Part shown: positions 13,749-38,291 of the stretch, piece after piece
Numbering within the stretch: position 1 is the stretch's first letter
Layout of the letters: each line of letters opens with the position of its first letter
Source of the DNA: a virus
DNA length: 45,532 nucleotides
Reading direction: 5' to 3' (one strand)
IMG/VR virus record: IMGVR_UViG_3300047089_000330
Span: 1 to 45,532 of that record
The notes under the pieces: generated by a model
Told to the model about the DNA's origin: nothing
What the model saw: the letters and a program-made list of their open reading frames with translations, nothing else
Database searches by the model: none
Translations under genes and position numbers: made by a program

Positions 13749-13753
13749 CGCGC

Positions 13754-15262: not shown

Positions 15263-17616
15263 ATAGCAACCTCTCCCCCTCGGACTCGGCGGCCGTGACT
15301 CCGCAGCCCGACTCGACGACGAGCCCCGCGCCCCAGACGCCCTACGACGCGAAGTACTGGTCGGAGTGCATTTCGGCGGCCGAGCGGAATCGCGACGAGT
15401 ATTTCAAGGTCTGGAAAGAGAGTGTCGCGTACCGCGTGCAGAAGCCGTTCGGCGGCACGGGCGACAACGAGTCCACGCAGGACCGCGTCGCGGTGCCCGA
15501 GGACTGGTCGCGCACGAAGCAGAAGCAAGCGCAGCTCATGTTCAAGCTGCCGAAGATCGTCGCGCGCGCGACTGACCCGGCATTCGAGGTGAGCGAGGAT
15601 CTCGTCACGGCCGCGGTCAATCAGAAGCTCACGAACGAGATGCGGGCCTACTACGCGATGGACGAGGCGCTGGCCGACGTCATCAATGCGGCCGGCATCA
15701 TGGCCGTGATGGTCGGCATCGACATTCGCACCGAGACCGTGACGCTCCCGCCCGAGGCCGCTGCGCCAGGGTCCCTCGCCGCGGTGCCCGCCGCGCCGGC
15801 GGCGCCCCCTGACGGCGGCATGCCCGCGCCCGTCGCGAGCCCGGACACGCCTGAGCCGAACGTCGGGGGCGGCGCGCCACCGTCTGACGCGCAGCCGAGC
15901 GCGCCGCCGTTCGAGGGCGCCGCCCCGCCCCTCGCCGGACCTCAGCCCCGGTCGATCACGCGCATCGTCTCGAAGCGGCTCTACGCCGATCGCGTGAGCC
16001 CCGCGCAGCTCCTGTGGCCCGCAGAGTTCGTGCTCTCCGATTGGGACAAGTCGCCGTGGGTGGGCTATGACACCTTCATGCCGGCGACGCTCGCGAAGAA
16101 AACCTTCAAGGTGCTCGTCGAGGAGGGCTGGGACGGCGCCCCGACGCAGAAGCCGAAGCTCCTCTCGGAAGATATCCTGACGCCCCCGAGCAAGGGCGTG
16201 TTTGAAGAGTACGCGCGCGTGCGGACGATCTTCTACCGCACCGCGAACTACGATCCGACCGTCACGCATCCCGATGCGATCCGGAAGATCGTCTTCGTCG
16301 ACGGCTGCACGCCGCCGGTCATCCACGAGGATCTCGACTGGCAGAAATACGTGCCGCCGACACTCGACAAGCCGGCGGTCCCGCCGACGACCGATCCGAC
16401 GACGGGGCAGACGACTGATCCGGGCATGCCGGCTGCGCCAGCGCAGCCGGGGAAATACATCGGCGTCCGGAACTTCCCGCTCCGCATTGGCACGCTGACC
16501 TACATCAGCGACGTCGCGATCCCGCCCTCGGATTCCGAGGCCGGCCGCTCGCAGGTGCGCGAGATGATCCGGTCGCGGTCACAGATGCTGCGGCAGCGCG
16601 ACACGTCGATCCCGATCCGCTGGTATGACGTGAACCGGCTCGACGAGACGATCGCCGACAAGATGCGCGCCGGCGAGTGGAACGACATGATCCCGGTCAA
16701 CGGGCCGGGCGAGCGGATCATCGGCGAGGTCGCACGCGCGAACTACCCGCGCGAGAACTTCCAGTTCCAGGGCGTCATCAGCAACGACCTCGATCGGTCG
16801 TGGGCCCTCTCGAACAATCAGATCAACGCTCCGAACGACACGACGCGCTCGGCGACGGAAGTCAACGTCATGGCGAGCGCCGGCGGCATCCGCGCCGACT
16901 ACGAGAAGGACCGCGTCAACAAGTTCGTGATGGGGATCGCTGAGGTCACGTTCGGCCTCATGCAGATGTTCATTGACGGGCAGGAATATGCCTCGCTCGT
17001 TGGCCCGCAGGGGCAGAACGTCCTGACGCCGTTCACGCGCGCAGACCTAACGGGCGACTACACGTTCGAGTTCGTGCCGGACTCGAGCGACCGCATCGAC
17101 ACGGCGACCAAGCAGGGGAACGTCCTGAAGATGTTCAACCTCCTCGGGAACAGCCCGACGACGAACCGTCCGAACCTCGAGCGGGAGATCTGGCAGTTGC
17201 ATGGCTTCGATCCCGCGAAGCTCACGCAGGCGCCGCCTCCGCCGAACCCCGACAAGCCGAACATCTCGTACCGCTTCAGCGGGGACGATCTACTGAACCC
17301 GATGGCGGTCGCGCTCCTGACGAAGTCGGGCATTCAGATCGGCCCCGACGATATCAAGGCCGCGGCCACGATGATTGCCGACGCCGTCCAGAAGCTGCAG
17401 GAGGCGAAGCTCACGATCGCCGCGGGTTATACGGGCGGCCCAATTGTGTCCGGACCCGGCCTCGGCGGCCCAGCCGTACCCGGCGCCCCGCCACACGCGG
17501 TGCCCCCGCAGAATGTGCCGGTGCCGGACCCCGCGCACGGCGCGGTGCAGCCGCCCGCGGAGCACGGCGTGAACCCGATCCTGAAGCGGACGGATAACGG
17601 AGACCGACTCGTATGA
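15259..17616 (+). CDS. Portal protein
   Basis: 785 residues. Placed directly after terL and of the size seen in short-tailed phages. N-terminal region: YDAKYWSECISAAERNRDEY, then a conserved segment (QKQAQLMFKLPKIVARATDP). The core has NYPRENFQFQGVISNDLD, NAPNDTTRSATEVNVMASA and a long helix. An 80-residue Pro/Ala/Gly-rich insertion (about 155-230) and a similar PAAPAQPG loop (about 385-400) interrupt the fold. The C-terminus is again Pro-rich. These low-complexity inserts are unusual for a portal. The protein forms the dodecameric DNA channel. Confidence 0.85.
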   Translation: MNSNLSPSDSAAVTPQPDSTTSPAPQTPYDAKYWSECISAAERNRDEYFKVWKESVAYRVQKPFGGTGDNESTQDRVAVPEDWSRTKQKQAQLMFKLPKIVARATDPAFEVSEDLVTAAVNQKLTNEMRAYYAMDEALADVINAAGIMAVMVGIDIRTETVTLPPEAAAPGSLAAVPAAPAAPPDGGMPAPVASPDTPEPNVGGGAPPSDAQPSAPPFEGAAPPLAGPQPRSITRIVSKRLYADRVSPAQLLWPAEFVLSDWDKSPWVGYDTFMPATLAKKTFKVLVEEGWDGAPTQKPKLLSEDILTPPSKGVFEEYARVRTIFYRTANYDPTVTHPDAIRKIVFVDGCTPPVIHEDLDWQKYVPPTLDKPAVPPTTDPTTGQTTDPGMPAAPAQPGKYIGVRNFPLRIGTLTYISDVAIPPSDSEAGRSQVREMIRSRSQMLRQRDTSIPIRWYDVNRLDETIADKMRAGEWNDMIPVNGPGERIIGEVARANYPRENFQFQGVISNDLDRSWALSNNQINAPNDTTRSATEVNVMASAGGIRADYEKDRVNKFVMGIAEVTFGLMQMFIDGQEYASLVGPQGQNVLTPFTRADLTGDYTFEFVPDSSDRIDTATKQGNVLKMFNLLGNSPTTNRPNLEREIWQLHGFDPAKLTQAPPPPNPDKPNISYRFSGDDLLNPMAVALLTKSGIQIGPDDIKAAATMIADAVQKLQEAKLTIAAGYTGGPIVSGPGLGGPAVPGAPPHAVPPQNVPVPDPAHGAVQPPAEHGVNPILKRTDNGDRLV

Positions 17617-18236
17617 TCCGCTCCGCTCTCGCGGTGACGCTCCTCGCCGGCGCGCTGTCGTTTTCGTCGACGACGACGCCCGTGCGCGTGCTGCCCTCAG
17701 TTGGGCACCTTCTCGGCGAGGCCGGTGGGCAGTGCACCGTCGCGTCGATCGGGGCCTCGCTGTGGCTAGGCGCCGCGCACTGCGCCGGCTTGAACAAACT
17801 CGGTGGCGCCGTACTTCGTGAGGTCAAGGTGGACGACGACGCGGACCTGCGGCTCCTCGCGGGACCCCCCGCGCCGGCCCTTCGGATCGCCTCTGAAGAC
17901 GCCACGCCTGGCGAGCCGGTCACGCTCTACGGGTGGACGGATGGTTATGTGGAGACGACGAGCCCGCACAACCCGTCGCCCCTCATCATGTTCGGGCACA
18001 CCTCGACGCGCCGAGTGCTTATGACCATCGAGGACGACAGTACCCCGAAGATCCGCAACCTATTCGACGCCGGTGCCGGCCCAGGGATGAGCGGCGGTCC
18101 GATCGTGAATGCTCGTGGGGAGATCGTCGGGGTGGTCGAGGCCATTCTCATCAACCCGTCGATCGTCGTCGTCAGTCCTACGGTGCAACAGATCCGGCAG
18201 TTCCTCGGCCTGAAAGTGAAGGAAAGTCGTGACTGA
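17613..18236 (+). CDS. Signal-peptide-bearing trypsin-like serine protease
   Basis: 207 residues, ATG at 17613 overlapping the portal stop. Residues 1-19 form a signal sequence (MIRSALAVTLLAGALSFSS). The chymotrypsin-fold triad is complete: H56 in WLGAAHC, D78 in DDDADLRLL, S160 in GPGMSGGPIVN. C41 and C57 could form the disulphide next to the catalytic His. Phage head proteases normally belong to ClpP-like or herpes-assemblin-like folds, so this is an unusual protease to find between portal and scaffold. It could mature the prohead, act on the envelope during entry or lysis, or process other virion proteins. Confidence 0.85.
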   Translation: MIRSALAVTLLAGALSFSSTTTPVRVLPSVGHLLGEAGGQCTVASIGASLWLGAAHCAGLNKLGGAVLREVKVDDDADLRLLAGPPAPALRIASEDATPGEPVTLYGWTDGYVETTSPHNPSPLIMFGHTSTRRVLMTIEDDSTPKIRNLFDAGAGPGMSGGPIVNARGEIVGVVEAILINPSIVVVSPTVQQIRQFLGLKVKESRD

Positions 18237-20624: not shown

Positions 20625-21572
20625 ATGTCTGTTATTGCACAGCTCGCCGCGGTCTCGTACCCGGCGGTCGTCACGGAAATGCGCAAGGCCGCGAATCAGT
20701 GGGCGGAGTCCGCCCTGATGCGCGAACTCGAACGGCAGAAAGCCGTGGAGCGCGTGAGCCTCGGCGCCATCATCGAGAAGCCGGTCGACTACCAGCGCAA
20801 TCCTGGTACGACCTTCCTCGCCTCGGATCTCTCGCTGACCTCGATGTCGAAGGTCGAAGTGCTGACCACGACGCAGGTCGACGCGGGCCAGATTTCTGTC
20901 CCCGTCGTCTGGTCGAAGGCCGACGAAGCGAAGAACCCGACTGAGAACCAGAAGATCAACTTCACGAAGGGTCTCCTCGAGAACGCGATCAATTCGCACG
21001 ACGATATCCTCGAGCAGGCGCTATTCGGCACGAACAACAGCGGGTTCTTCGGTCTGCAGACGCTCGTCCCGACCTCCGGTCAGGCCGTTGTGCAGGGCGT
21101 CGACGCCAGCGTGGAGGCGTGGTGGCGCAACTATGCCGGCCAGTATCTGAACGCCGGCACGGACATCGAAGCGCAGATGACGACCGCGTGGAACACCGCG
21201 GCGAAGGGCAGCGGCTCGCAGCTCGCGCCGACGCTCATCGTCAGCTCCGCAGCGGCGCAGGCGCTCTTCGAGGCGTCCCAGCAGCCCCTGCAGCGCTGGA
21301 TCGACACGGACGAACTGAAGGCCGGGTTCAAGATCCTGGGCTTCAAGACGGCTCGTTACGTGTTCAGCCAGTACGGCGCCACGCTCAACACGAACCCGAT
21401 CTACTTCCTGAACCCGAAGTCGTTCACCCTGACCTGCTCGAAGGAAGCCTTCCGGCAGAAGGGCGACACGATGGAGATCCCGAACATGGAAGGCTACGTG
21501 TTCAAGATCTACTCCCTCGTGCAGGCGACGACGAACAACAAGTCGCGTCTCGCAGTGATCACGGGTCACTAA
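20625..21572 (+). CDS. Major capsid protein (HK97-fold type)
   Basis: 315 residues, ATG at 20625 with GGAGGG four bases upstream. It follows the scaffold gene and precedes a small decoration-type gene. Recognisable features: a helical N-terminal arm (VTEMRKAANQWAESALMRELERQKAVERV), an E-loop-like beta segment (NPGTTFLASDLSLTSMSKVEVL), a spine helix and a C-terminal beta strand (GYVFKIYSLVQATT). It lacks a long N-terminal delta domain, consistent with a separate scaffold. Flanked by an 11-bp hairpin after the stop. Confidence 0.85.
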   Translation: MSVIAQLAAVSYPAVVTEMRKAANQWAESALMRELERQKAVERVSLGAIIEKPVDYQRNPGTTFLASDLSLTSMSKVEVLTTTQVDAGQISVPVVWSKADEAKNPTENQKINFTKGLLENAINSHDDILEQALFGTNNSGFFGLQTLVPTSGQAVVQGVDASVEAWWRNYAGQYLNAGTDIEAQMTTAWNTAAKGSGSQLAPTLIVSSAAAQALFEASQQPLQRWIDTDELKAGFKILGFKTARYVFSQYGATLNTNPIYFLNPKSFTLTCSKEAFRQKGDTMEIPNMEGYVFKIYSLVQATTNNKSRLAVITGH

Positions 21573-22848: not shown

Positions 22849-23529
22849 ATGCAGCTATCCGACATTCGTACGCGGGTGATGAACCGTCTCAATCTCACGT
22901 CTCCCGAAGCCGCGACGCGCATCAACGCTGAGATCAACGATCGCTACCGCGAGGTTGTGACCTCGGTCAATCTCACGCGGACACGCCGCAGCCTCATCGC
23001 CATGAACACGGCAAGCGGGCAAAGCACGATTACGACCGCCGGCGTGGCGAAGCTCCTCGACGTGTTCGATCCGGTCATCCTGCGGCGACCCCTCAACGAG
23101 GTGAGCCAGAACCAGATCCGCCTCATGGACGCATCCTCGCAGGTCGTCGGCACGCCCTACATGTACGCGATCGAGAAGCATCAGAACGACACCGTCACGA
23201 TCCGCCTGTTCCCGCAGCCGACCGGCGTCTCGCAGCTACAGGCAGACTGTGTGGTGTCCGGCACCGACCTCGTGAATGACACAGATATCCCGACGTTCCC
23301 GAACGACTACCACGACGTGCTCGTGCATGGCGTGCTCGCGGACGAGTACGCAAAGCTCGAGAAGACGCAGCCCCTTGCCGAGCGCGAAGAGGCGAAGTTC
23401 GAAAAGCGTCTGAGTGAGCTGCGCTATTTCCTCATCAAGTCGGCGTACCTCTCGACGGTCCAGAAGGACCACGCCCTCCGGTTCGGCCTCTCCTCGAGGG
23501 TCTGGCCCTACGCGAACATCGGATCGTAA
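22849..23529 (+). CDS. Head-tail adaptor protein
   Basis: 226 residues, ATG at 22849 with GAGGGAG upstream. Starts MQLSDIRTRVMNRLNL, then a helix (AATRINAEINDRYREVVTSVN), a beta core and a C-terminal helix (REEAKFEKRLSELRYFLIKSAYL). This matches adaptor (gp11-like or P22 gp4-like) proteins of short-tailed phages, which bind the portal and start the tail. It directly abuts the next tail gene. Confidence 0.7.
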   Translation: MQLSDIRTRVMNRLNLTSPEAATRINAEINDRYREVVTSVNLTRTRRSLIAMNTASGQSTITTAGVAKLLDVFDPVILRRPLNEVSQNQIRLMDASSQVVGTPYMYAIEKHQNDTVTIRLFPQPTGVSQLQADCVVSGTDLVNDTDIPTFPNDYHDVLVHGVLADEYAKLEKTQPLAEREEAKFEKRLSELRYFLIKSAYLSTVQKDHALRFGLSSRVWPYANIGS

Positions 23530-26321: not shown

Positions 26322-28253
26322 GTGAAGCTCGTCCTGATCAACCGGGAGCGGCTCCAGTCCCTCGGGAGCTTTCTCGTCAGCGAGTTCGACTCCCTGATTT
26401 CGCGCATTCGCGGGTCGTGGGGGGTTGAACACAACGACGACGACTCGCACGGAAACGTCCATGCGGACTCCGTCGCGACCGGCCGGCTGACGTTCAGCGA
26501 TATTGTGACGTCGGCCGTCACGACGGCGCAGATCGACAATCACAACCCCGGAGGGCTCTCGACGGCGGCGCTCCTGCGGATCAGTAGCCCGACGCCGCAG
26601 GGCCACGTGACGTGGACGGGGCTGCAGGTCCCGCAGGACGACGGCGGGACCGTCCTCGACGGCCGTGCCTTGGTCATTGAGAACACGTCGGTCAGCACGG
26701 TCTTTCGCCTCGTGAACGAGAGCACGTCGTCGCTCCCCCGCAATCGGTTCAACCTTCCCTGGTCGCCGATCAATCCCGCTGGTGACGAGTGGTTTCTGCT
26801 CTACCCCGGCATGCTCGCGGTTGTGGTGTATAACGCGAGCAAGGCGCGCTGGCAGGTCGCCTCGCAGAACAACGACACGATCCGCACCGCGGCCTCGTTC
26901 AGCACGAGTCAGAATGACTATGCGCCGGCGGGACTCCGCACCTCGCGCTACGTCAGTCTGCTGCCGGCAGTCGCCGGACTGTCGATCAGCGGTTTCGACG
27001 CGCGCGTGTCGACGGACTCAACGGCTGTGCCTGCGCCGACAACGAAAATCCTGACGAACGACGGCCTGTTCACCGTCGACCTGCTGCATATGAACGCCAG
27101 CTCGCTCCTGACGAGCCGCATTCAGTGCCCGGGCGGCGTGCGCTATCGGCTCTATCCGCGTGAGAGCGTGACGATCTATCGGAGCGATGAGAACACGTGG
27201 AAGATCGTCGAGAAGGCCGATCAGTGGTACGACAGCGTCTATGCGGCCGGAAGTTTCACGACGGACGCCGGGACGTGGACGGTCGACGCCGGGGACGTCA
27301 CGACGCTCACGTGGCAGCTCGACGGCAACAAGATGACCTGCACGTTCCACCTGACCGCGACGACCGTCGCCACGAACCCCACGGAGCTGCGGATCGCCAT
27401 CCCCGGCCTCGACGGCGTGTTCTTGACGCGCACGATCGCTCGGACGACGGCCAACCCGATCCTGGCGAAGGACAACGGCACGGTCGTGAGCACCGCCTAT
27501 GTCGAGGCGCTGGTGGGAAAGTCATACTTGCGCGTGCGCAAGGACCAGGCAGGCACCGCGTGGGTCGCCGCGACCAACGCGACGGAGATCCGCGGCCAGA
27601 TCACGTTCATGGTGCAGGACAGCAACATCGCGGAGAATCACAACGACGTCGCGCACGGCGACGTGACGCACGCCGACGTCGAGCACTCGGACGTGGCCCA
27701 CGTCGACGTCGCGCACGGCGACAGTCACACGGATGCCAGCCACTCGGACGTGGCCCACTCGGACGTGGCCCACTCGGACGTGGCCCACACCGACACGCAT
27801 GGGGACGTGGCGCACAGCGATTCGCACGACGATACGGCCCACAGCGACGTCGCGCACGGCGACACGGCGCATGACGACTCACACGGAGACGTGCTGCACG
27901 GCGACAACCACGCCGATCACACCTCTGGCACGCACGCGGACTCCCATTCGGATACGCCGCACGATGACTCCCACGGCGACACGGCCCACGACGACGTGGC
28001 GCATAGCGATGGCTCTCACACCGACGCGCACGGTGACACGGCGCACACCGACACGCACAGCGATGTCGCCCACGTCGACGCGGCCCACAGCGATGTCGCC
28101 CACGTCGACGCGGGGCACACGGATAGCCACTCCGACACGGCGCCGCATTCCGACACTGCGCACGTCGACGTGGCCCACGCGGACACGCCCCACTCAGATA
28201 GCCTGCATCAGGACCTGGGCTACCACGTGGACGGCAATCACGTTGACATCTAG
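26322..28253 (+). CDS. Tail-fibre-type protein ending in a long His-x-Asp repeat domain
   Basis: 643 residues, GTG start at 26322, three bases after the previous stop. Residues 1-30 form a helical attachment (LINRERLQSLGSFLVSEFDSLISRI), followed by a small His/Asp motif (EHNDDDSHGNVHAD, about 36-49). Residues 50-435 are beta-rich, fibre-like. From H440 to the end lie 43 units beginning with His; 42 of them are H-x-D, followed by none to three spacer residues (often VA, TA, TP or S), e.g. HSDVAHSDVAHSDVAHTDT. The repeat makes the C-terminus extremely acidic and His-rich, suited to binding metals or being enzymatically modified. The next genes encode a peptidase, a radical SAM enzyme with the same repeat, and a methyltransferase. 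Confidence 0.85.
   Translation: MKLVLINRERLQSLGSFLVSEFDSLISRIRGSWGVEHNDDDSHGNVHADSVATGRLTFSDIVTSAVTTAQIDNHNPGGLSTAALLRISSPTPQGHVTWTGLQVPQDDGGTVLDGRALVIENTSVSTVFRLVNESTSSLPRNRFNLPWSPINPAGDEWFLLYPGMLAVVVYNASKARWQVASQNNDTIRTAASFSTSQNDYAPAGLRTSRYVSLLPAVAGLSISGFDARVSTDSTAVPAPTTKILTNDGLFTVDLLHMNASSLLTSRIQCPGGVRYRLYPRESVTIYRSDENTWKIVEKADQWYDSVYAAGSFTTDAGTWTVDAGDVTTLTWQLDGNKMTCTFHLTATTVATNPTELRIAIPGLDGVFLTRTIARTTANPILAKDNGTVVSTAYVEALVGKSYLRVRKDQAGTAWVAATNATEIRGQITFMVQDSNIAENHNDVAHGDVTHADVEHSDVAHVDVAHGDSHTDASHSDVAHSDVAHSDVAHTDTHGDVAHSDSHDDTAHSDVAHGDTAHDDSHGDVLHGDNHADHTSGTHADSHSDTPHDDSHGDTAHDDVAHSDGSHTDAHGDTAHTDTHSDVAHVDAAHSDVAHVDAGHTDSHSDTAPHSDTAHVDVAHADTPHSDSLHQDLGYHVDGNHVDI
27639..28250 (+). repeat. 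Degenerate 12-15 bp coding repeats for H-x-D units
   Basis: The DNA repeats CAC-NNN-GAC-NN(G/C)-GCC-type units. The clearest stretch is three identical 15-mers CACTCGGACGTGGCC at 27739-27783. Elsewhere codons vary while H-x-D is kept, so selection acts on the protein and not on the DNA. Unit lengths of 3 to 6 codons show that length is flexible. Confidence 0.9.
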
Positions 28254-28281
28254 ACCTCGGCTGTAATAGAGTGACGCCGCC

Positions 28282-28785
28282 ATGCCTGATCCCACCGCGC
28301 TTGCCGTCGCCGCGCTCCTGAACAGCGGGATCGGGCAGTACCCTGATCCGAAGATCTACCAGGCGGCGAGCCTCCTGCAACCCGCAGAGCGGCCGACCGT
28401 GCCCGTTCGCCCCGAGCATACGAAGTTCAGCCAAGGCGACCAGCGGATTGCGTGGGTGGACCAGATCCGCGATCCGGGCGTGATTCACATGTCGCAGGAC
28501 TCTCCCGCGTATAAAAAACAGAACTTCCCGGCGCTGGCCGCCGCACTGGCACACGAACAAGTGCATGTCGCGGGGCAGGCCGGACAAGGCGGGCGTCCGG
28601 ACCTGCGAGAAATTCCGGCCTTCGAGCGGGAGCGGTCTGTCTTGCAACGGCTCGCGCCGAAACAGAACCAACAACGTCTAAAAGATATCGACCATCTCAT
28701 CGACTACTATCGTCCGTACGATCAGAAGAACGCGCCCGATCCGGAGGTAGACCGGCAGGCCCTTCTCGCACAGATGCAAAAATGA
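28282..28785 (+). CDS. HExxH zinc peptidase-like protein
   Basis: 167 residues, ATG at 28282, 28 bases after the repeat-protein stop. A metallopeptidase-type helix AALAHEQVHVAGQ gives H91-E92-x2-H95; E110 or E115 (LREIPAFERER) is a candidate third ligand or glutamate as in gluzincins. A strand upstream (GVIHMSQDS) precedes the active helix. It may be a protease of the virion, or a cell-wall or repeat-processing enzyme. The last residues RQALLAQMQK match the end of the protein at 31253-31900, hinting at a shared virion-targeting tail. Confidence 0.7.
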   Translation: MPDPTALAVAALLNSGIGQYPDPKIYQAASLLQPAERPTVPVRPEHTKFSQGDQRIAWVDQIRDPGVIHMSQDSPAYKKQNFPALAAALAHEQVHVAGQAGQGGRPDLREIPAFERERSVLQRLAPKQNQQRLKDIDHLIDYYRPYDQKNAPDPEVDRQALLAQMQK

Positions 28786-28826
28786 GTTCGTGGCACTTGC
28801 CGGCCTAGCCGTGCGTCGTACTGTGA

Positions 28827-30035
28827 GTGAGCATTGAACTGACGCCGATCGGCAAGGCCTGTAACATCGCCTGCACGTACTGCTACCAGCAAGAGGAACG
28901 TGCCGTGACGCAGAACACCGCGGAGCCTTACGACCTCAAAGCAATGAAGGCGGCGCTCCTCGCGGAGGGCGTCGGGAAAGGCGTCGGCTGGACCCTCTTC
29001 GGCGGTGAGAGCCTCCTCTTCCCCATCAACGATCTCGCGCACCTCCTCGACTGGTCGGCGTCCATCGGGGCGCCCGTGGGTGTGCAGACCAACGGCTCGT
29101 TGATCACCGATCGACACGTCGACCTGTTTCGTCGATACCGCGTACATGTCGGCTTCAGCATCGACGGCCCTGGCGCGCTGAACGACGCGCGCCAGGCGAA
29201 AGACCCCACCGCGACGCGCGCGACGACCAGCCTCAGCCTGCGGAACCTCGATCGACTCCTCGCAGAGGGCGTCAGCGTGAGTCTGATCGTCACGCTGCAT
29301 GCGCTCAACGCGCGGCTCACGTCGCTGCAGACGCTCGTCGACTGGCTGCTCGCGCTGCGTGACAAGGGCCTGAAATACGTCAATCTCCACACCCTCGAGC
29401 CGCACGGCGATTCCGCGCTCGCCCTTTCCCCAGCGTCGCAGACGTTCGCGCTGCGGACGCTGCGCCAGAAGCTCGTCGGGTTCGCGAGTGTGAGCCCGTT
29501 TGATGACATGCGGAAGTCGTTGCTCCAAGAGAGCGGCGCTAACTGCATCTGGAACTTCTGCGATCCGTATACGACGGCCGCCGTCCACGGCGTCGACGGC
29601 CAGGGGCAGCGCTCGAACTGCGGTCGGACGAACGTCGACGGTGTCGCGTACCAGAAGGGCGACGTCGCAGGGAAGGAACGCTACCTCGCGCTCTACCTCA
29701 CGCCGCAGGAACACGGGGGCTGCGCCGAGTGTCGGTTTTTCGTTCCGTGCGGCGGCGGGAATTGTCCGGGCGAGGCGATCGATGGCGACTGGCGCAATCG
29801 CACGGTACACTGTGCGACGCTGAAGGCGCTGTTCATCGACATCGAGCAGGAACTCCGCGCCGAGGGACGAGAGCCGATCTCGTGCTCCCTCCGCCGTCCG
29901 GCGCTTGAGGCGCAGCTCCTCGGGCAATGGAGCGGCGTCCGCGCAACGGGTAATGTTGCGCACGGGGATTCCCCACACGGGGACGCCCCACACGGGGACT
30001 CGCATGGAGATCACACCGATGCGCCTGCCGTTTAA
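28827..30035 (+). CDS. Radical SAM enzyme with SPASM-like region and its own H-x-D tail
   Basis: 402 residues, GTG at 28827. The radical SAM cluster motif is C12-x3-C16-x2-C19 (CNIACTYCYQ), then a GGES motif (59-62), QTNGSLIT, SIDGP and later barrel strands (VSLIVTLHALN, YVNLHTLEPHGDS). The C-terminal region has Cys at 240, 245, 265, 299, 302, 308, 313 and 329 (CAECRFFVPCGGGNC), the pattern of SPASM/twitch domains that hold auxiliary Fe-S clusters in peptide-modifying enzymes. It closely resembles anaerobic sulfatase-maturase-like and RiPP maturases. Residues 379-398 are five H-x-D units (HGDSPHGDAPHGDSHGDHTD). It probably modifies the H-x-D repeats of the neighbouring tail protein. Confidence 0.9.
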   Translation: MSIELTPIGKACNIACTYCYQQEERAVTQNTAEPYDLKAMKAALLAEGVGKGVGWTLFGGESLLFPINDLAHLLDWSASIGAPVGVQTNGSLITDRHVDLFRRYRVHVGFSIDGPGALNDARQAKDPTATRATTSLSLRNLDRLLAEGVSVSLIVTLHALNARLTSLQTLVDWLLALRDKGLKYVNLHTLEPHGDSALALSPASQTFALRTLRQKLVGFASVSPFDDMRKSLLQESGANCIWNFCDPYTTAAVHGVDGQGQRSNCGRTNVDGVAYQKGDVAGKERYLALYLTPQEHGGCAECRFFVPCGGGNCPGEAIDGDWRNRTVHCATLKALFIDIEQELRAEGREPISCSLRRPALEAQLLGQWSGVRATGNVAHGDSPHGDAPHGDSHGDHTDAPAV

Positions 30036-31317
30036 GATTCCCGAGTTTGCGCCGCGCACGACGTGGGTGTCCGCGGTCGCCCGAGAGGTCTGGGAGCCGC
30101 GCCTGCACGCCATCGCGCAGCGCCAGGACGAGGCGGAGCGCGCGGCGGTCGCGGAGGGCCTGCGTCCGAGCGCCCTGCAATACGTAATGCCCGAGGCGCT
30201 GCCGGACCTGATGCACGCGTGCGCGAAGGATCGGCTCACAGTCCTCCCCCTCGGACGAGAACCGCTGCCCGGCACGTATCGCTCGCAGGGCCACGACCTC
30301 CGACCCGGCGAACCGTTCGCCTATCGCTGCGCGATCACGTCGCCCACCCTCGCGGCGGAATGGGCGTCGGCGTGGACGCCCCGCAACGACGCCCGCATCG
30401 GCACGCTGCTCGGCTATCCGGGGTGCTGCCGCGACTTTTTCACGCGCGTCTGGTCGGTCGAGCGCTGGTTCGACACGACGTGGCCGATGGCCGATCCGGG
30501 TGGCGACGTCCGCGGCGCGGTCAACGTCCTGTGGCGATGGCACGGGGTCCGGGCGGTCTCGCACCTCCCGTGCTCGTTTGCCTGCGAGGCGTCTCTTGCC
30601 TTGCAGACGCAAATGCTGGCCCTGTGGCACCGCCGGTGGCCGGACGAGGGGCGCTGGCTGGCTGAGATCCTGTCCTGGCCGGTCGAGTGGACGGCCCTGC
30701 ACGGTCTGGCAGAGCTACGTACGCCGATCACCCGAACGGTTGTGCCAACCGATGCGACGGCGACGCGCCTGGTTGTCAATTTCCGGGGTCCAGGTTATCC
30801 TGTGGAAGGTGCGGCGGGGGCACGGTTTCCCCACCGAACCACGCGACAGGCGACGCCGCTGCGTGTCGTCGCCCGGTCTAACCCTCACCATAACGGGTTC
30901 GCCAGCTTGGCAGCGATGCAGGCGGCCCACGCCCCTCTTCTCTCTCGTGCTGGCGGTCCCTACGAGACGATTGTCGATCTCGGATGTGGGGACGGGACAC
31001 TCGCGTCGAAGATTCCCGCGAAGCGTCGTGTCGGCATCGAAGCCGATCCGGCGCGCGCGGCGGCGGCCCGGACTCGACTCGATCATGTCGAGGAGGTCGA
31101 CTGCACCTCGGACGCAGCACGCATGTTGCTGGCCCGAGAGCAGCCCGACCTCGTGATTGCGCAAGTCGTGCGGAATCCACCGGAGACGCTGCGAGACTAT
31201 CGCGTGTTGTCCTACTCGTACGACGAACCGTTTGTTCGACTCGAGGAGCCGCATGGATCAGACCTTCACGCCCAACGATCAGCCCGGCCAGACCGCGGTC
31301 AAATACTTCCTCGATAA
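30004..31317 (+). CDS. Fusion of a Cys-motif (DUF483-like) domain and a SAM methyltransferase
   Basis: 437 residues from ATG at 30004 (ATG 30019 possible), overlapping the radical SAM gene by 32 bases. The N-terminal part (to about 250) contains GYPGCCRDFF (C141, C142) and HLPCSFACEAS (C190, C194). These are the paired motifs of the DUF483-like family, probably a metal or Fe-S site. Residues 320-400 form a class I methyltransferase: TIVDLGCGDGTL, IEADPARAAAARTRL, DLVIAQVV. The last 22 codons overlap the next gene. With the radical SAM enzyme, it could methylate or otherwise alter the H-x-D repeats. Confidence 0.75.
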   Translation: MEITPMRLPFKIPEFAPRTTWVSAVAREVWEPRLHAIAQRQDEAERAAVAEGLRPSALQYVMPEALPDLMHACAKDRLTVLPLGREPLPGTYRSQGHDLRPGEPFAYRCAITSPTLAAEWASAWTPRNDARIGTLLGYPGCCRDFFTRVWSVERWFDTTWPMADPGGDVRGAVNVLWRWHGVRAVSHLPCSFACEASLALQTQMLALWHRRWPDEGRWLAEILSWPVEWTALHGLAELRTPITRTVVPTDATATRLVVNFRGPGYPVEGAAGARFPHRTTRQATPLRVVARSNPHHNGFASLAAMQAAHAPLLSRAGGPYETIVDLGCGDGTLASKIPAKRRVGIEADPARAAAARTRLDHVEEVDCTSDAARMLLAREQPDLVIAQVVRNPPETLRDYRVLSYSYDEPFVRLEEPHGSDLHAQRSARPDRGQILPR

Positions 31318-31900
31318 CGGTATCTCGCCCGGCGCGGCCGGCGGCGCTCAACCGACGCAGCAGGCCGGCGACGCGGGTAAGACCGCAGGCACCGATCCGC
31401 AGGGGGCGCTCACCGATCTCGTCGCCGGCGTTGCGAAAGACGCCCCGGCCGCAGCGAGCGCCGCATCAGGACCCGACCCTTACGCCGGTCTGCCGGACTG
31501 GCTCGCGAGCGTCTATCGCAAAGACAACTACAAGCTCGGGGGCCAGGGCTCCGGTTTCGGCGACTCGGCCTATTGGGCGAACGACGCCGTGAAAAACTCG
31601 AACGGCGACACGGTGTACCTCGCTGATCGCCTCGACAAAGATATTCGTGGCGTCGGACAGGACAAGGCTGGCCCCGGCGACTACGGCGACGCGCTGAAGT
31701 CTGGCGCGAGTGGCGGAGGCGGCCCGCAGGCGCCGTCAGCGCCGCAAACGTCCTCGCTCGCAGGCAGTCTCCCGGGGTCCCTCGTGCCGATGACCAGCGA
31801 CACGACGAGCGCGCTGCAGGCGGCCGTGCAGAAGCTCCTCGGACAGTCGCCGAACGGCGACTTCGATCAGCAGGCGCTCCTCGCGCAGATGCGCGGGTAA
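31253..31900 (+). CDS. Virion-associated protein, 215 aa
   Basis: ATG at 31253 with GAGGAG upstream, inside the end of the methyltransferase gene. N-terminal helix (GQTAVKYFLDNG), Gly/Ala/Pro-rich linkers, a central segment (LPDWLASVYRKDNYKLGG) and a C-terminal helix (TSALQAAVQKLLG) ending QQALLAQMRG. That ending repeats the RQALLAQMQK tail of the 28282-28785 peptidase. It starts the block of internal virion proteins. Confidence 0.65.
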   Translation: MDQTFTPNDQPGQTAVKYFLDNGISPGAAGGAQPTQQAGDAGKTAGTDPQGALTDLVAGVAKDAPAAASAASGPDPYAGLPDWLASVYRKDNYKLGGQGSGFGDSAYWANDAVKNSNGDTVYLADRLDKDIRGVGQDKAGPGDYGDALKSGASGGGGPQAPSAPQTSSLAGSLPGSLVPMTSDTTSALQAAVQKLLGQSPNGDFDQQALLAQMRG

Positions 31901-33544: not shown

Positions 33545-34518
33545 ACCCCCTCGTCAGTCCGTTCGCCGCGGGGCAGGACGAGCTGCATCAGTTCCTCGCC
33601 GACCGCGAGGCGAAACAGATCCGCGATCAGCAGCTCGCGCGACAGGCCCAGCTCGATCAGCAGAACGAAGCCTATCGCCAGTCGGAGCTGGGGCTGCGCG
33701 GGCAGGACATGGATCTGCGCCGCCAGGAGTTCGGCGAGCGCGAACAGGATCGCCAGGCCGGCGTCGCGATTCGTCAGGATACGCAGCGCCGAGCGGATGC
33801 TGCCGAGAAGGAAGTGCACGACGCGCTGAACACGTTCACGGACCCGAACGCGAGCCCGCAGGACCGGCAGAAGGCCGCGTTTACCCTCGATCAGCATCAC
33901 GTCAGTCCGACGCTGCTGAATCCGAAGCCGACGACCAAACCGACGTTGTTCGTCGGTGCGGACGGCACGACACGGCAAGGACCGACTGTCGACGCGAATA
34001 CGGAAGTGATCCATCTGCCGAAGCCCGAAGCGGCTCCGAAGCCGCCGAAGGACAACCCGAACCTGCCGCAGGGCGTCGTGAACTACCTCGACGACTTCCT
34101 GACAAAGACGAAGGGCGTCGACGCGAAGGGCAACCCCGCGCCGTACTCACTCAATGACGCGTATCAGGAAGTCTCGCAGAATTGGGGCAAGCTGAAGGCC
34201 GTGCATCCTGGCCTCGACGCTGGCGCGGTCAAAGCCTACATGATGAAGTCATTCCCGCAGGACCCCTTGACGGGCCAGCGGCAGGGCTTCGCTATGGGCG
34301 GCGGCGCGCCGGGGATCACGCCGAAGCCCCAGGCGAACGCGACCCCCAGCGGCGTCGGTGTTCCAGGCGCGAACCCGCCCCCGCCCGGCTCGCCCGGCGA
34401 GCGCGCCGATCAGGTCTCGAAGCTCCTCGCCAACGTGCCCGGCGGGAAGGTCACGACCCTCAGCGACGGGACGAAGTGGCTGAAGCTCCCCAACGGTAGC
34501 GTCTCGCAGGTGCAGTAA
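33541..34518 (+). CDS. Internal virion protein, coiled coil, 325 aa
   Basis: GTG at 33541. Residues 15-95 are one long polar helix rich in Gln, Arg, Asp and Glu (QDELHQFLADREAKQIRDQQLARQ...), followed by Pro-rich and mixed segments (PQGVVNYLDDFLTKTKG). Gly/Thr-rich C-terminus. The stop shares a base with the next ATG (TAATG). A likely partner of the 1257-aa protein in the ejected core. Confidence 0.6.
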   Translation: MNPLVSPFAAGQDELHQFLADREAKQIRDQQLARQAQLDQQNEAYRQSELGLRGQDMDLRRQEFGEREQDRQAGVAIRQDTQRRADAAEKEVHDALNTFTDPNASPQDRQKAAFTLDQHHVSPTLLNPKPTTKPTLFVGADGTTRQGPTVDANTEVIHLPKPEAAPKPPKDNPNLPQGVVNYLDDFLTKTKGVDAKGNPAPYSLNDAYQEVSQNWGKLKAVHPGLDAGAVKAYMMKSFPQDPLTGQRQGFAMGGGAPGITPKPQANATPSGVGVPGANPPPPGSPGERADQVSKLLANVPGGKVTTLSDGTKWLKLPNGSVSQVQ

Positions 34519-37500
34519 TGGGCGAGCGCCCCCTGTCGATCGTCAGCGTCGAGGACGCGTCTCCGCTTGCGATCAAAAGCGTGGAGGACGCGACGCCTCA
34601 ACCCTCGTGGTTTTCGCGCGCCTGGGAAGCCGCCAAGGCGATTCCGGACGTCGCGAAGCTCCTCGTCTCTGAACCCTCCGCGACGCTCAAGGGCTTCGGC
34701 CAGGGCGCGGAGGAGGGCGCCGTCAACGTGGCCGACACGGCCATCCCTGCCGCCCTGCGCATCGGCGGCGCGGCCGGAGGCGCCACCCTCGGCGCCGCGG
34801 CCGGCCTCCCCACAGGCCCGGGCGCCGTGCTCACCGGTGCCGCCGGCGGCGCGGCCGGAGGCGCGGCGGGCGAGACGGCCGCCGAGGGCTACGAGAAGTG
34901 GCGCGGCCTGCGGAAGGCGATCAGCCCGAAGCAGATCGTGCTGGGCGGCGCGCTGAGTGCCGTCCCCGGCTTCGGTCCCGAGGCGGGCCCGCTTGCGCAC
35001 GCCGCCATGGGCGCGGGCCTCGGCGCGGTCGGATCGGCCGCCACGGACCTGTCGGAAGACCGGATGCCCACGGTCGCCGGAACCCTCGGTGCGGGCGTGC
35101 TGGGTGGCGTGCTCGGCGCCGGTGCGCACGAACTCCAAACGCGCGGGCCGGCCGCCGAGGGCCCCATCAGTGAAGCGGCTGCGGTCGAACCTCTCCACAT
35201 CGCGAAGGTCGAGGACGCATCGAACCTGCAGCCGGTCAACGATCCGGCCCTCGGGCCTGACGCCATGACGCCCATCGAATACGCGGGCCCGGAGCGTCGC
35301 GTCGCCGCCGGTGAGAGTCCGACTGGCGTCGATCGGCGGAATCAGCCGATCAACACGATGACGCAAGCCCCGGCGGACACCATCAAACAGATGGTCGCCG
35401 AGGACCCACAGATTCTGAAAAAGGCCGCGGAGCTGGACCCCGTTCGCGTCGCGGCCCGCCAGATTCAGGAGGAGCAGGCGTCGGTGCCGCAGCAGACTGG
35501 CCCTGAAGCGGCAGCTCCTCCTGAACCCTCTCCCGCTGACCGCATCGACGAATTGCCGGATGGCGGCACGCCCGGCTACAAAAAAGTGCCGTTCCCGGTC
35601 GCGGACAAGGCGAACGAGGATGCGGTCGTCGGGGGTGTCGACTACAACACGCCCACCCTCGAGCGCGTGCCGCTCAATAAGATCACGGCGACGCAGGACA
35701 CGATCACCGCGCGGACGGCGAAAGACTACGCGTCGCAGTCGACGCCCGAGGATCGGACGGAGCTACCGGCCGGCGTCTACGGCAAGATGCCGAGTTCGGA
35801 ACGGGCCGGGATGCCGATCGCGATCAAAGATCCGAACGGCAATTACCTGCTCGGTGATGGCACGCATCGCGTGGTGGCGGCCGGTGCGCGCGGCGAGGAC
35901 AGCGTGCAAGCGATTGTCTATCCGTCGTCGGAGACGATCGGGCCGAAGGTCGAGCCCTCGCCGGTGGCCGACGTGCCTCCTGTCGCGAACAGCGAGACGA
36001 AGCCGACGCAGCCCTCGATCCGATCGATCGAGGCGGCGGCGCAGGTCTCCGGCCAGAAGATCCCCGAGCAGCAGCCCCTGACCGCCGAGCGCATCGCCGG
36101 GCAGGGCACGATGATCTCGAAGATGCCGGAGCCGGTGCAGGAGCCGCTCGCGAAGGTCATTGCCGATAACAACAACTTCGAAGCGCAGCGCCGCGGCGTG
36201 CAGCCGAACGCCCGCACGCAGGCGCTCGCCGACTATATTCAGACGCAGTCGACACAGGCCCTCCCGAAGGGCACCGCTTTGAACGCCGAGGAGACGGTCG
36301 CGTACGCGCGCGCGGTCGCGACCGTGCAGGACAAGATCAATGACCTCGCCGCGAAGGTCGCAGACGGCTCGGCGTCGGACGCCGATCGCCTGGCGCTCGT
36401 CGCCGCCCATCAGGAGCAGATCGCCCAGACCGCGAGTTTCCTCGGCGCACGCGCCGAGACCGGCCGCGCGCTGAACGCGCACAAGCAGGCCGTGCAGCTC
36501 CTGAACAGCCAGGACACGATCGCCATTCAGCAGGCGATGAAAGATCCGGCGTTCCGGAACGACCTCGACGCGTTCGCGAAACAGTGGGCGCAGCTCCCGA
36601 CCGATCAGGCGAAGCTCGACTTTCTCCGAAAGAACCAGACGCAGACGATCGGGAGTCTCGCGCGGTCGGTGTACTACGCCAATATCCTCAGCGGCGTGAA
36701 GACCCACCTCCGGAAGACGATCGGCGACCTCGCGAACCTGACGTTCGAGAACCTCTCGCAGCCGGCGGCCGTCGCCTACGACGCCGTGAGGCACCCCGGC
36801 AACCGCACGATGTTCGCCAGCGAGATCGCGCCGCGCGCGTACGGGACGCTCACGGGCCTGAAGCAGGGGTTCGACGACTATCTGTTCACGCTGCAAAACG
36901 GCTACACCCCGCATCAACTGCAGGTGTTCGACGTGCCGCGGCCGGAGATCCCGGGAGGCGGCGCCAACCCCCTGAACTGGCCCTCGCGGAACCTGCAGGC
37001 CGTCACGCAGTTCTTCCAGACGATCGCCTACCATCAGGAGCTGAACGCGCGGCTCTTCGCGCGCGCTAAGGGCCTGGCCCTGAAGGAAGGCCTGACGGGC
37101 GCGAAGCTCGGCGACTTTGTCACGACGAAGCTCGCGGAGTGGAAGATCCAGCCGCCGGACGACGCCGTGCAGGGCGCCACCGCGCTGGCCGATCGCGTCG
37201 TGCACATGGAGGACCCGGGGAAGATCGTCGCGGCCGTGATGAACCTGAAGAAAGCCGCGCCATTCCTCGACTTCATTGTCCCGTTCGTGAAGATCCCCGC
37301 CAGCATCCTCCGGCAGGGCATCGAAGCGTCTCCGTTTGCCCCGGCCACGGCGCAGTTCCGGGCCCTCATCAAGGCCGGGGGCCGCGAGGAGTCGCAGGCC
37401 ATGGGGCGCGTCCTGACGGGCACCGCGGCCCTCTCAGCGCTCGCCTATTGGGCCGCCCAGGGCCACGTGAGCGGCAACGGGCCCCAGGACCCGGCGAAGC

Positions 37501-38291
37501 GTGCCGCGCTCATGGAGAGCGGCTGGCGGCCCACGAGCGTCAAGCTGGGGAAGGACTGGATCGACTACGCGAACGCCGCGCAGCCCCTCTCACAGGTCCT
37601 CTTCACCGTGGCGAACGCGGCAGAGTCCTACCTCGAGAACAAGACGCCCCCGAACCCGGCGGTCCTCCTCGCGCAGGCCGGCGGCGCGCTCCTCGAGCAG
37701 TCGTTCCTGTCGGGCCTCGCGGACCTCAACAGCGCGCTCTCAGACCCTGGCCGGTACGGGGAGAAGTGGGCCACGCGCCTGGCGCAGGGCGCCGTGCCGG
37801 CGTCGGGGATGATGCGGAACGTCGCGCAGGCTGTCGATCCGACCGTTCGTGATCCGAAGGGCGTCGTCGACAGCGTGAAGTCGATCATCCCGGGCGTCTC
37901 GCAGCAGGTCCCGGCGCGGCTGGACCGCTTTGGGGAACCCGTGACGCGCCCCGGAGGTCCTTTCAATCGAGGGTTCAGCTCGGTGCCCTACAGCCCCGAG
38001 ACGGACGAGGCGCTCGGGAAAGAACTCACGCGGGTGGGCTACGACAAGCTCGGGCTCCCGCCAAAAGATCTCCCGAAGACGAAGCACCTGCCGAAGATCG
38101 ACTTGACGGAAGACGAACGGCAGACCATCGGGCGCGCGACGCGGGTCGCGCTCGAGGACCTGTTCAATCGCCCACAGTGGGGCTCATTGGACGAGGATGT
38201 GGCCCGCGATTACATCGCTCGCACGATCCAACGCGCGCGGTTCACGGCTGAACAAGGGATACGGCGCCGTCGTGCGCTCGGCGGAGGGTAA
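34518..38291 (+). CDS. Large internal virion (ejection) protein with ParB-like domain
   Basis: 1257 residues. Repeated VEDA[ST] phrases occur at residues 10-14 (SVEDAS) and 21-25 (SVEDAT), and again near 232 (KVEDAS). A Gly/Ala membrane-like stretch follows the first two (about 75-120: RIGGAAGGATLGAAAG, VLTGAAGGAAGGAAG). Around 380-475 lies a ParB/sulfiredoxin-like domain: VPLNKITATQDTI..., PIAIKDPNGNYLLGDGTHRVVAAGARGE, with the GxHR box. The rest is mostly helical with long Gln/Ala/Glu segments. Size and place match the largest core protein of short-tailed phages, which enters the host with DNA. The ParB-like part may bind or cut nucleic acid or nucleotides. Confidence 0.7.
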   Translation: MGERPLSIVSVEDASPLAIKSVEDATPQPSWFSRAWEAAKAIPDVAKLLVSEPSATLKGFGQGAEEGAVNVADTAIPAALRIGGAAGGATLGAAAGLPTGPGAVLTGAAGGAAGGAAGETAAEGYEKWRGLRKAISPKQIVLGGALSAVPGFGPEAGPLAHAAMGAGLGAVGSAATDLSEDRMPTVAGTLGAGVLGGVLGAGAHELQTRGPAAEGPISEAAAVEPLHIAKVEDASNLQPVNDPALGPDAMTPIEYAGPERRVAAGESPTGVDRRNQPINTMTQAPADTIKQMVAEDPQILKKAAELDPVRVAARQIQEEQASVPQQTGPEAAAPPEPSPADRIDELPDGGTPGYKKVPFPVADKANEDAVVGGVDYNTPTLERVPLNKITATQDTITARTAKDYASQSTPEDRTELPAGVYGKMPSSERAGMPIAIKDPNGNYLLGDGTHRVVAAGARGEDSVQAIVYPSSETIGPKVEPSPVADVPPVANSETKPTQPSIRSIEAAAQVSGQKIPEQQPLTAERIAGQGTMISKMPEPVQEPLAKVIADNNNFEAQRRGVQPNARTQALADYIQTQSTQALPKGTALNAEETVAYARAVATVQDKINDLAAKVADGSASDADRLALVAAHQEQIAQTASFLGARAETGRALNAHKQAVQLLNSQDTIAIQQAMKDPAFRNDLDAFAKQWAQLPTDQAKLDFLRKNQTQTIGSLARSVYYANILSGVKTHLRKTIGDLANLTFENLSQPAAVAYDAVRHPGNRTMFASEIAPRAYGTLTGLKQGFDDYLFTLQNGYTPHQLQVFDVPRPEIPGGGANPLNWPSRNLQAVTQFFQTIAYHQELNARLFARAKGLALKEGLTGAKLGDFVTTKLAEWKIQPPDDAVQGATALADRVVHMEDPGKIVAAVMNLKKAAPFLDFIVPFVKIPASILRQGIEASPFAPATAQFRALIKAGGREESQAMGRVLTGTAALSALAYWAAQGHVSGNGPQDPAKRAALMESGWRPTSVKLGKDWIDYANAAQPLSQVLFTVANAAESYLENKTPPNPAVLLAQAGGALLEQSFLSGLADLNSALSDPGRYGEKWATRLAQGAVPASGMMRNVAQAVDPTVRDPKGVVDSVKSIIPGVSQQVPARLDRFGEPVTRPGGPFNRGFSSVPYSPETDEALGKELTRVGYDKLGLPPKDLPKTKHLPKIDLTEDERQTIGRATRVALEDLFNRPQWGSLDEDVARDYIARTIQRARFTAEQGIRRRRALGGG

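Follow-up and report, generated by a model that had tools for sequence, protein, structure and literature searches.

A radical SAM/SPASM enzyme beside a viral H-x-D array protein: a candidate system for cyclophane cross-linking of tail-type proteins

The window analyzed here is a stretch of viral DNA of 45,532 nucleotides (IMG/VR record IMGVR_UViG_3300047089_000330), and the genes under study lie on its plus strand. The first of them, which has a GTG start, encodes a 643-aa virion-type protein (26322..28253), the putative substrate. It is followed by a metallopeptidase-like HExxH ORF of 167 aa (28282..28785), a radical SAM/SPASM enzyme of 402 aa (28827..30035), and a DUF483-like domain fused to a methyltransferase (30019..31317, alternative start 30004), whose start codon sits within the 3' end of the radical SAM gene. 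All coordinates in the first-pass annotation, and the same-strand order downstream of the array gene, were right. Its count of 43 C-terminal His units, 42 of them H-x-D, was borne out as well. These units occupy residues 439-643 (27636..28250, plus strand) and are separated by spacers mainly of 1-2 residues; in 10,000 composition-preserving shuffles of the segment, the mean number of H-x-D motifs was 9.6 and the maximum 19. Over the whole ORF there are 44 H-x-D, including two N-terminal ones at residues 37 and 47, and both His codons (37 CAC, 7 CAT) and both Asp codons (34 GAC, 10 GAT) are used. The N-terminal 443 aa match solely proteins of the same kind on related contigs (L110, L142, L091, L077). 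No match to this domain was obtained in Pfam, in PHROGs, or by tblastn against phages, and megablast of window positions 1-25000 against phages likewise gave none.

The radical SAM protein, a candidate three-residue cyclophane synthase, scores 49.2 bits against Pfam Radical_SAM PF04055 (cut-off 29.5). Its core carries the CxxxCxxC motif (C12, C16, C19), followed by a complete set of SPASM cysteines (C240, C245, C265, C299, C302, C308, C313, C329) with the spacing C245-x14-G-x4-C265, C299-x2-C302-x5-C308-x4-C313, and C329. All of these cysteines are invariant in 24 homologues. The AlphaFold2 model (pLDDT 83) resembles anSMEcpe and ChlB. ChlB is the top PDB match by sequence and also gives the highest TM-score to the model, with approximately 18% identity in the structure alignment. 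The named models nearest to the family are mostly those of cyclophane-forming enzymes (AmcB, YhhB, DynA, GrrM), with the window enzyme below every curated cut-off of the named cyclophane families (72/425 bits for AmcB, 69/445 for YhhB, 53/310 for GrrM); sulfatase maturases are almost as close to the family in both structure and sequence. The enzyme also ends in an H-x-D tail of its own, which the earlier annotation had overlooked: residues 379-398 (HGDSPHGDAPHGDSHGDHTD; 29961..30020, plus strand), predicted to be disordered. Among the best 80 of 235 viral matches, at least two HxD motifs are present in the tail of 64 of 76 distinct, uncut, and unfused enzymes.

The third component is an almost constant companion of the enzyme. 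DUF483 partners the radical SAM protein in 127 of 136 distinct loci (79 viral, from the best 80 of 235 viral matches, and 57 genomic). Residues C136, C137, D152, R173, G176, and C189 are invariant in this domain, and C185 is nearly so. Fold searches gave matches for the methyltransferase part only, the best being a weak one to protein isoaspartyl methyltransferase; the methyltransferase domain is found on most phage DUF483 proteins. Some cassettes of the same family contain a further enzyme, a true aKG-HExxH peptide beta-hydroxylase (TIGR04267), which scores above cut-off in five cassettes other than that of the window. Hydroxylases of this type occur in 5 of 79 viral cassettes (best 80 of 235 matches) and 19 of 57 genomic ones, and in Nannocystis a single protein fuses the radical SAM enzyme, DUF483, and TIGR04267. 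For a characterised aKG-HExxH relative, the reaction is hydroxylation of Asp and His in a cyclophane that has already formed (PMC12636437).

The association between enzyme and array is directly established, and it was approached from both sides. A scan of viral contigs with the window enzyme as a single sequence returned nothing, and alignments were needed to find relatives; the best 80 of 235 viral matches were examined. Found by core motifs among these, 61 of 63 distinct viral enzymes, a few of which have no independent habitat or host assignment, adjoin an aromatic-x-[DN] array, and the two array-less ones lie on short fragments. The scan motifs are located in the core of the enzyme and not in its tail. 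Because set A2 includes members recovered through the H-x-D pattern, branches of the family that act on other substrates may be underrepresented. In the opposite direction, the first-pass annotation had asked whether many such repeat proteins lack a radical SAM neighbour. Most have one: a DNA-pattern search gave 40 genuine arrays, and for 35 of them the enzyme is encoded in the same locus or contig; the remaining five are on contigs of unproved completeness. Low-complexity matches of the DNA pattern (L025, L026, L069, L072, L086, L112, and others), with a fixed unit, few spacers, and no such enzyme, were set aside; none of 18 look-alikes has a local radical SAM gene. Among control radical SAM loci, one of 27 has an array (L285, GGWNNWNNG repeats), and it looks like a GrrM/OscB-type system.

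The arrangement of the cassette is also regular. The array gene lies upstream of the radical SAM gene on the same strand in 99 of 108 cases, and in 71 the two are within 100 nt or overlap. Array proteins are virion- or lectin-type and range from 200 to more than 2000 aa; the array is C-terminal, ending no more than 15 aa from the C-terminus in 102 of 105 arrays. Its median size is 37 units, and the largest count, in one relative, is 106 motifs. The trio of array protein, radical SAM enzyme, and DUF483 is found in the cultured Thermus phages Cumys and phiMa, non-adjacently in phiLo, in the chromosomes of bacteria, and on a plasmid from a haloarchaeon. In Cumys, the array protein is Cumys_13 (XKB90002.1), which has 54 H-x-D; Cumys_12 is the radical SAM enzyme and Cumys_11 the DUF483 protein. 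No array was found near the Halorussus plasmid member, and none was recognised for about a dozen bacterial members of the enzyme family.

A motif rule can be read directly from the 105 arrays. Asp follows His at +2 in 2917 instances, against 582 expected, and is depleted at +1 and +3. The same position is enriched in Asn after Phe (130 vs 18 expected) and in Asp after Tyr (166 vs 91) and Trp (43 vs 25). Glu is avoided at +2 (15 vs 49), as is Ser (8 vs 305), and Pro is avoided at the middle position (2 vs 273). The H-x-D unit of the first reading holds for the window but not as a general rule: within one enzyme family the unit is H/F/Y/W-x-D/N, rarely H-x-K, with a constant i,i+2 spacing. Individual loci illustrate the variants, with F-x-N at L177, H-x-N at L204, H/W/Y-x-D at L266, and H-x-K at L241, L258, and L267. 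Selection on the two positions was observed in seven pairs of related arrays, where nonsynonymous and synonymous changes number 22 and 81 in H and D codons, against 142 and 145 elsewhere.

The closest known systems are those that produce triceptides (XncB, OscB/GrrM, YxdB, HaaB, YhhB), in which a radical SAM/SPASM enzyme also adjoins an aromatic-x-acceptor substrate with i,i+2 spacing. Precedents include bonds from C2 of His to a beta carbon (HaaB, YhhB), from C3 of Tyr to the beta carbon of Asp (YxdB), between Phe and Asn (XncB, OscB), and between Trp and Asn or Asp (OscB), so that His, Tyr, Phe, and Trp donors and Asp and Asn acceptors are all represented (PMC11002830). In contrast to the large proteins with C-terminal arrays described here, the triceptide substrates are short RiPP precursors with a leader and a core. 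H-x-D is absent from the motifs of that review (PMC11002830), and the present family differs further in its obligate DUF483 partner and the substrate-like tail of the enzyme. ChlB and ChlH, a multiple cyclophane synthase with an aKG-HExxH beta-hydroxylase, resemble those cassettes here that include such a hydroxylase; unlike that pair, the window has none. To our knowledge, no DUF483 protein belongs to the ChlB/ChlH system. In the His-Xaa-Ser (Hxs) system, a repeat protein with a His every few residues lies beside radical SAM genes. However, its unit is H-x-S and its enzymes are the paired HxsB and HxsC, whereas here Ser at +2 is avoided and there is usually one radical SAM protein; the HxsB model TIGR03978 gives 29.5 bits with the window enzyme (cut-off 370). 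In phages, the first-pass annotation knew of no described system of this kind. The module had in fact been noted in Cumys and phiMa, as a radical SAM protein, DUF483, and an unknown protein, with possible DNA modification suggested (Kolesnik et al. 2024, PMC11437467). The gene family and order are the same, but that paper makes no mention of histidine or H-x-D and lists two of the genes as of unknown function.

The reading we favour, at a probability of roughly 0.7 and on comparative sequence evidence, is that the cassette modifies protein: it would install cyclophane cross-links in the arrays at the C-termini of tail- or lectin-type proteins. An aromatic-x-Asp/Asn unit with i,i+2 spacing, in which Glu is avoided at +2 and Pro at x, follows the substrate rule of three-residue cyclophane synthases. 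The enzyme would link the side chain of the aromatic first residue to the beta carbon of the third, removing two hydrogens and closing one three-residue cyclophane per unit. On a large virion protein such as the one here, with 42 units, it would repeat the reaction many times over the length of the array. The modified array would probably give a tail fibre or baseplate protein a stiff rod or tip that resists proteases. We take the DUF483 protein, in which four cysteines are conserved, as an obligate partner that may be concerned with substrate handling, a cofactor, or a second modification; its methyltransferase domain may alkylate the product. The core of the earlier proposal, that the enzyme modifies the H-x-D units and that their three-residue spacing points to cross-linking, receives strong comparative support. 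Gene association, the motif rule, selection on H and D, the SPASM cysteines, and the predicted fold are what the analysis shows directly; the reaction, the ring, processivity, virion location, and mechanical role are what we infer.

Among the alternatives, a different chemistry on the same arrays is unlikely but deserves the most attention; it would comprise beta-oxidation, epimerisation, methylation with the methyltransferase domain, or a dynobactin-like imidazole N-C bond. In favour of this option, anSME, which oxidises side chains, is one of the nearest structural neighbours, DynA ranks with the closest NCBIfam models, and most phage DUF483 proteins carry the methyltransferase domain with its weak match to protein isoaspartyl methyltransferase. 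However, modification of single residues would not call for an aromatic partner at a constant distance of two positions whose identity changes between His, Phe, Tyr, and Trp, and an imidazole N-C bond is impossible with the carbon rings of the last three, which are present in members. It is highly improbable that the arrays are unmodified metal-binding rods and that the enzyme acts elsewhere. His and Asp are common ligands, and HxH-metal tips occur on phage fibres, but array and enzyme are linked nearly one-to-one in both directions, F-x-N arrays are unfit as such metal sites, and Glu, a comparable ligand, is avoided. We attach still less weight to DNA modification by the radical SAM-DUF483 module, as suggested for Cumys and phiMa on the strength of cyanobacterial homologues that adjoin deazapurine genes (Kolesnik et al. 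2024, PMC11437467): the third gene is nearly always an aromatic-x-D/N array protein, including beside cyanobacterial member L217, some cassettes contain the peptide beta-hydroxylase, and no QueC or PTPS homologues were found in the window, a record that may be incomplete. Finally, simple DNA repeats on other contigs do yield H-x-D strings (L025, L072, L112), but genuine arrays vary x and spacers, draw on two codons each for His and Asp, and show selection on H and D, so that a tandem-repeat artefact has a negligible probability.

Cyclophane cross-linking would have wider consequences. We would give even odds to a broader picture in which viruses of bacteria, and perhaps of archaea, use an enzyme of their own to staple a single virion protein with tens to approximately 100 strained rings of three residues each. 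In this picture, lectin-type proteins of bacteria would have their C-terminal tails hardened by the same machinery, in some cases with beta-hydroxylation as well, and the enzyme would also act on the H-x-D tail that it carries. Archaeal viruses are considered possible carriers because of the haloarchaeal plasmid example. No covalently stapled polymer of this kind is known in any virus. If this is correct, radical SAM cyclophane chemistry would reach beyond short peptide natural products into large structural proteins, and viruses would encode the irreversible cross-linking, on a mass scale, of tail proteins of their own. The proposal supplies a functional hypothesis for DUF483, for a large unnamed radical SAM family, and for a published phage module read as DNA modification. 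A processive stapler of any aromatic-x-Asp/Asn array would also be of practical use for making rigid protein rods. The module is present in three cultured Thermus phages, so that mass spectrometry of their virions could decide the matter.

The HExxH ORF between the array gene and the radical SAM gene had been counted as part of the system, a role that is not upheld. It was rejected as an aKG-HExxH peptide beta-hydroxylase on failing TIGR04267, it has no significant match in Pfam, PHROG, or NCBIfam, and its homologues are found only in L148 and L110/L116/L143/L144. Because it fails this model and has relatives in few loci only, it is probably a separate virion protein outside the modification cassette. 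Its C-terminal tag, D[RQ]QALLAQM, is shared with the ORF at 31157-31900.

The putative substrate of the radical SAM (rSAM) enzyme is encoded by the window at 26322-28253 on the plus strand. Within this 643-residue protein, residues 439-643 form an array of aromatic-x-[DN] units: 42 of its 43 histidines begin an H-x-D, compared with a mean of 9.6 and a maximum of 19 in 10,000 shuffles of this region. It is followed in the 3' direction, on the same strand, by an HExxH ORF (28282-28785), the rSAM gene (28827-30035) and a DUF483-methyltransferase ORF (30019-31317), the start codon of which falls within the 3' end of the rSAM coding sequence. Re-reading these ORFs confirmed the coordinates and unit count of the first-pass annotation, from which two features were absent: the end of the rSAM, HGDSPHGDAPHGDSHGDHTD, and the DUF483-like domain in the third of the downstream proteins. 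In the window, a virus record of 45,532 bases, the cassette (array protein, rSAM and DUF483) shares its strand with the genes for TerL (13667-15262), a protease (17613-18236) and the major head protein (20625-21572), as well as with those for tail (22849-23529) and internal virion (34518-38291) proteins, which places it inside the structural gene block.

Members of the rSAM family, comprising the best 80 of 235 viral matches and about 60 from bacterial or archaeal genomes (genomic members), were collected in profile searches built on rSAM core motifs. An array was defined as an ORF within 7 kb of the rSAM with at least 7 aromatic-x-[DN] per 60 residues, and viral members were de-replicated at 90% identity. 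Arrays were found near the rSAM in 61 of the 63 distinct viral members identified by core motifs; the other two are short contigs, namely a phiLo-like piece (L124) and one cut just upstream of DUF483 (L175). The threshold was passed by 31 of 57 genomic members. In many of those below it, the immediately upstream protein carries 4-6 units at its extreme C-terminus (for example, IPHVDIPLPHVDHVDVPVIGHIDDY in Nannocystis), and in about a dozen of the 57 no array was recognized. Among 27 unrelated rSAM loci serving as a control, only one passed, and the GGWNNWNNG repeats beside its enzyme resemble a GrrM/OscB-type cyclophane system. DUF483 is present near the rSAM in 127 of 136 distinct members, and for all of the remaining nine, no more than 1.4 kb separates the member from the downstream end of the sequence examined. 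In the reverse direction, a DNA pattern of four H-x-D units retrieved 119 viral stretches, 40 of which encode genuine arrays with varied x and spacers. The proposed link between such repeat proteins and an rSAM neighbor held for 35 of these 40 (32 in the local stretch, 3 more elsewhere on the contig). Of the five exceptions, L085 has an array cut by the contig end, L019 has just 8 units, and a collagen-like protein of 12-13 units is encoded in L024, L053 and L075; a protein in L081 with equal length and unit count lies on a contig with an rSAM. No rSAM was found near low-complexity H-x-D look-alikes, either locally (0/18) or where the full record was searched (0/15).

In a tblastn search of 50,697 phage records, close full-length rSAM homologues (46-48%) were restricted to the cultured Thermus phages Cumys, phiLo and phiMa, as were DUF483 matches. 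In Cumys and phiMa, a protein with 53-54 H-x-D is encoded directly upstream of the rSAM, right behind tail collar and baseplate genes, and a DUF483 protein directly downstream. phiLo has an rSAM-DUF483 pair and, a few kb away, three giant array proteins (101, 72 and 47 H-x-D), in which the H-x-D are retained and the spacers are highly varied. All three phages carry an H-x-D tail at the end of the rSAM. A plasmid of the haloarchaeon Halomicrococcus gelatinilyticus also carries the trio, with a baseplate J gene upstream of it, and the system therefore crosses domains.

Across 105 arrays totaling 19,989 residues, 2917 His have Asp at +2, compared with 582 expected; at +1 and +3 Asp is under-represented. 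Enrichment at +2 also applies to Phe-Asn (130 versus 18), Tyr-Asp (166 versus 91) and Trp-Asp (43 versus 25). At this position Glu is under-represented (15 versus 49) and Ser and Thr are nearly absent; Pro occurs twice at x (273 expected) and is common in spacers. Some arrays consist mainly of F-x-N (L177) or H-x-N (L204), and others mix H/W/Y-x-D (Desulfonema L266) or H/F/Y-x-N/D (L005). A few bacterial members (L241, L258, L267) have H-x-K clusters (PHIKHIKAPHIKHIK) instead of H-x-D, which suggests an altered acceptor. Consequently, donor and acceptor vary while the spacing is fixed. In seven pairs of related arrays, His and Asp codons show 22 nonsynonymous and 81 synonymous changes, versus 142 and 145 for other codons.

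The same four donors are used by known three-residue cyclophane synthases: HaaB and YhhB bond His C2 to a beta carbon, YxdB joins Tyr C3 to Asp, XncB and OscB join Phe to Asn, and OscB joins Trp to Asn or Asp (PMC11002830). The H/F/Y/W-x-D/N/K pattern at fixed spacing fits this chemistry, in which the rSAM would form three-residue cyclophanes on the aromatic-x-D/N/K units of the arrays. The first-pass annotation had proposed alteration of the units by the rSAM; the comparison favors cyclophane cross-linking, while metal binding by the arrays and epimerization of their residues both fit poorly with variable residues at constant spacing. The rSAM-DUF483 module was flagged by Kolesnik et al. 2024 (PMC11437467) in Cumys/phiMa, related prophage loci and DUF483-methyltransferase fusions; an unknown DNA modification was proposed and the arrays were not mentioned, and such a role likewise matches these substrates poorly. 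The module was thus not wholly new to the literature. In the open-access titles and passages covered on radical SAM with cyclophane/phage, tail fiber or HxD, there was no description of phage protein cross-linking.

The SPASM and SAM-cluster cysteines of the rSAM are all invariant. The closest structures to its AlphaFold model (pLDDT 83, tail disordered) are anSMEcpe and ChlB, a multiple cyclophane synthase that is also the top PDB sequence match. None of the named NCBIfam families reached its cut-off, and the nearest are mostly cyclophane-forming. The tail of the window enzyme (29961-30020) resembles its own candidate substrate. At least two H-x-D follow the SPASM domain in 64 of 76 distinct, uncut, unfused viral rSAMs versus 6 of 39 genomic ones; the motif is usually HGDxxHGDHTD or HGDHWD in viral relatives and mostly missing in bacterial chromosomal members. 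The family is represented twice in some viruses (L050:10391-13315, L207:7992-11448, L204), and the second rSAM of L207 has 25 H-x-D within its own ORF.

In DUF483, residues C136, C137, D152, R173, G176 and C189 are invariant and C185 nearly so, suggesting a metal site; a fold search against the PDB gave matches only for the fused methyltransferase part. Many bacterial members are rSAM-DUF483 fusions. Some cassettes, 5 of 79 viral and 19 of 57 genomic, additionally encode the aKG-HExxH peptide beta-hydroxylase (TIGR04267); in Nannocystis L231, the rSAM, DUF483 and hydroxylase domains form a single polypeptide. The characterized member of this hydroxylase family acts on a peptide whose cyclophane is already in place, adding hydroxyl groups to Asp and His (PMC12636437). 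The HExxH ORF of the window, previously listed with the cassette, falls outside this family, which rules it out as such a hydroxylase. Its C-terminal peptide VDRQALLAQMQK (28747-28782) is nearly identical to FDQQALLAQMRG (31862-31897) of ORF 31157-31900 (DRQALLAQM versus DQQALLAQM), the rest being unlike. The HExxH ORF more likely encodes a virion protein, and the common peptide might serve as a tag for sorting or packaging.

In 102 of 105 cases the array stops no more than 15 residues before the C-terminus. Arrays are joined to unlike N-terminal parts, including collagen-type tail fibers (L201), LamG (L166, L266), tectonin/tachylectin (L221), beta-gamma crystallin (L231) and GSxWIE repeats (L002:8961-9300, L298:5338-5600, L094, L204 and others). 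From gene position and these domains, we infer that the arrays are located in the virion. The repeat GSxWIEgxxLxYxDxxGxxR occurs in 2-3 copies at the start of many array proteins, in phages and the haloarchaeal plasmid alike; it had no Pfam or PHROGs match in the proteins tested and is possibly a leader-like recognition or virion-attachment part. In Nannocystis, Desulfonema and Plesiocystis (L226, L231, L266, L244), large proteins adjoin rSAM-DUF483(-hydroxylase) fusions or neighbors; they share a nearly identical terminal cluster, WIP[HF]VD..., and those tested have lectin-like or crystallin domains. Some large phages encode several array proteins, including collagen-like fibers of 12-13 units far from the rSAM gene (L202/L081, one viral contig).
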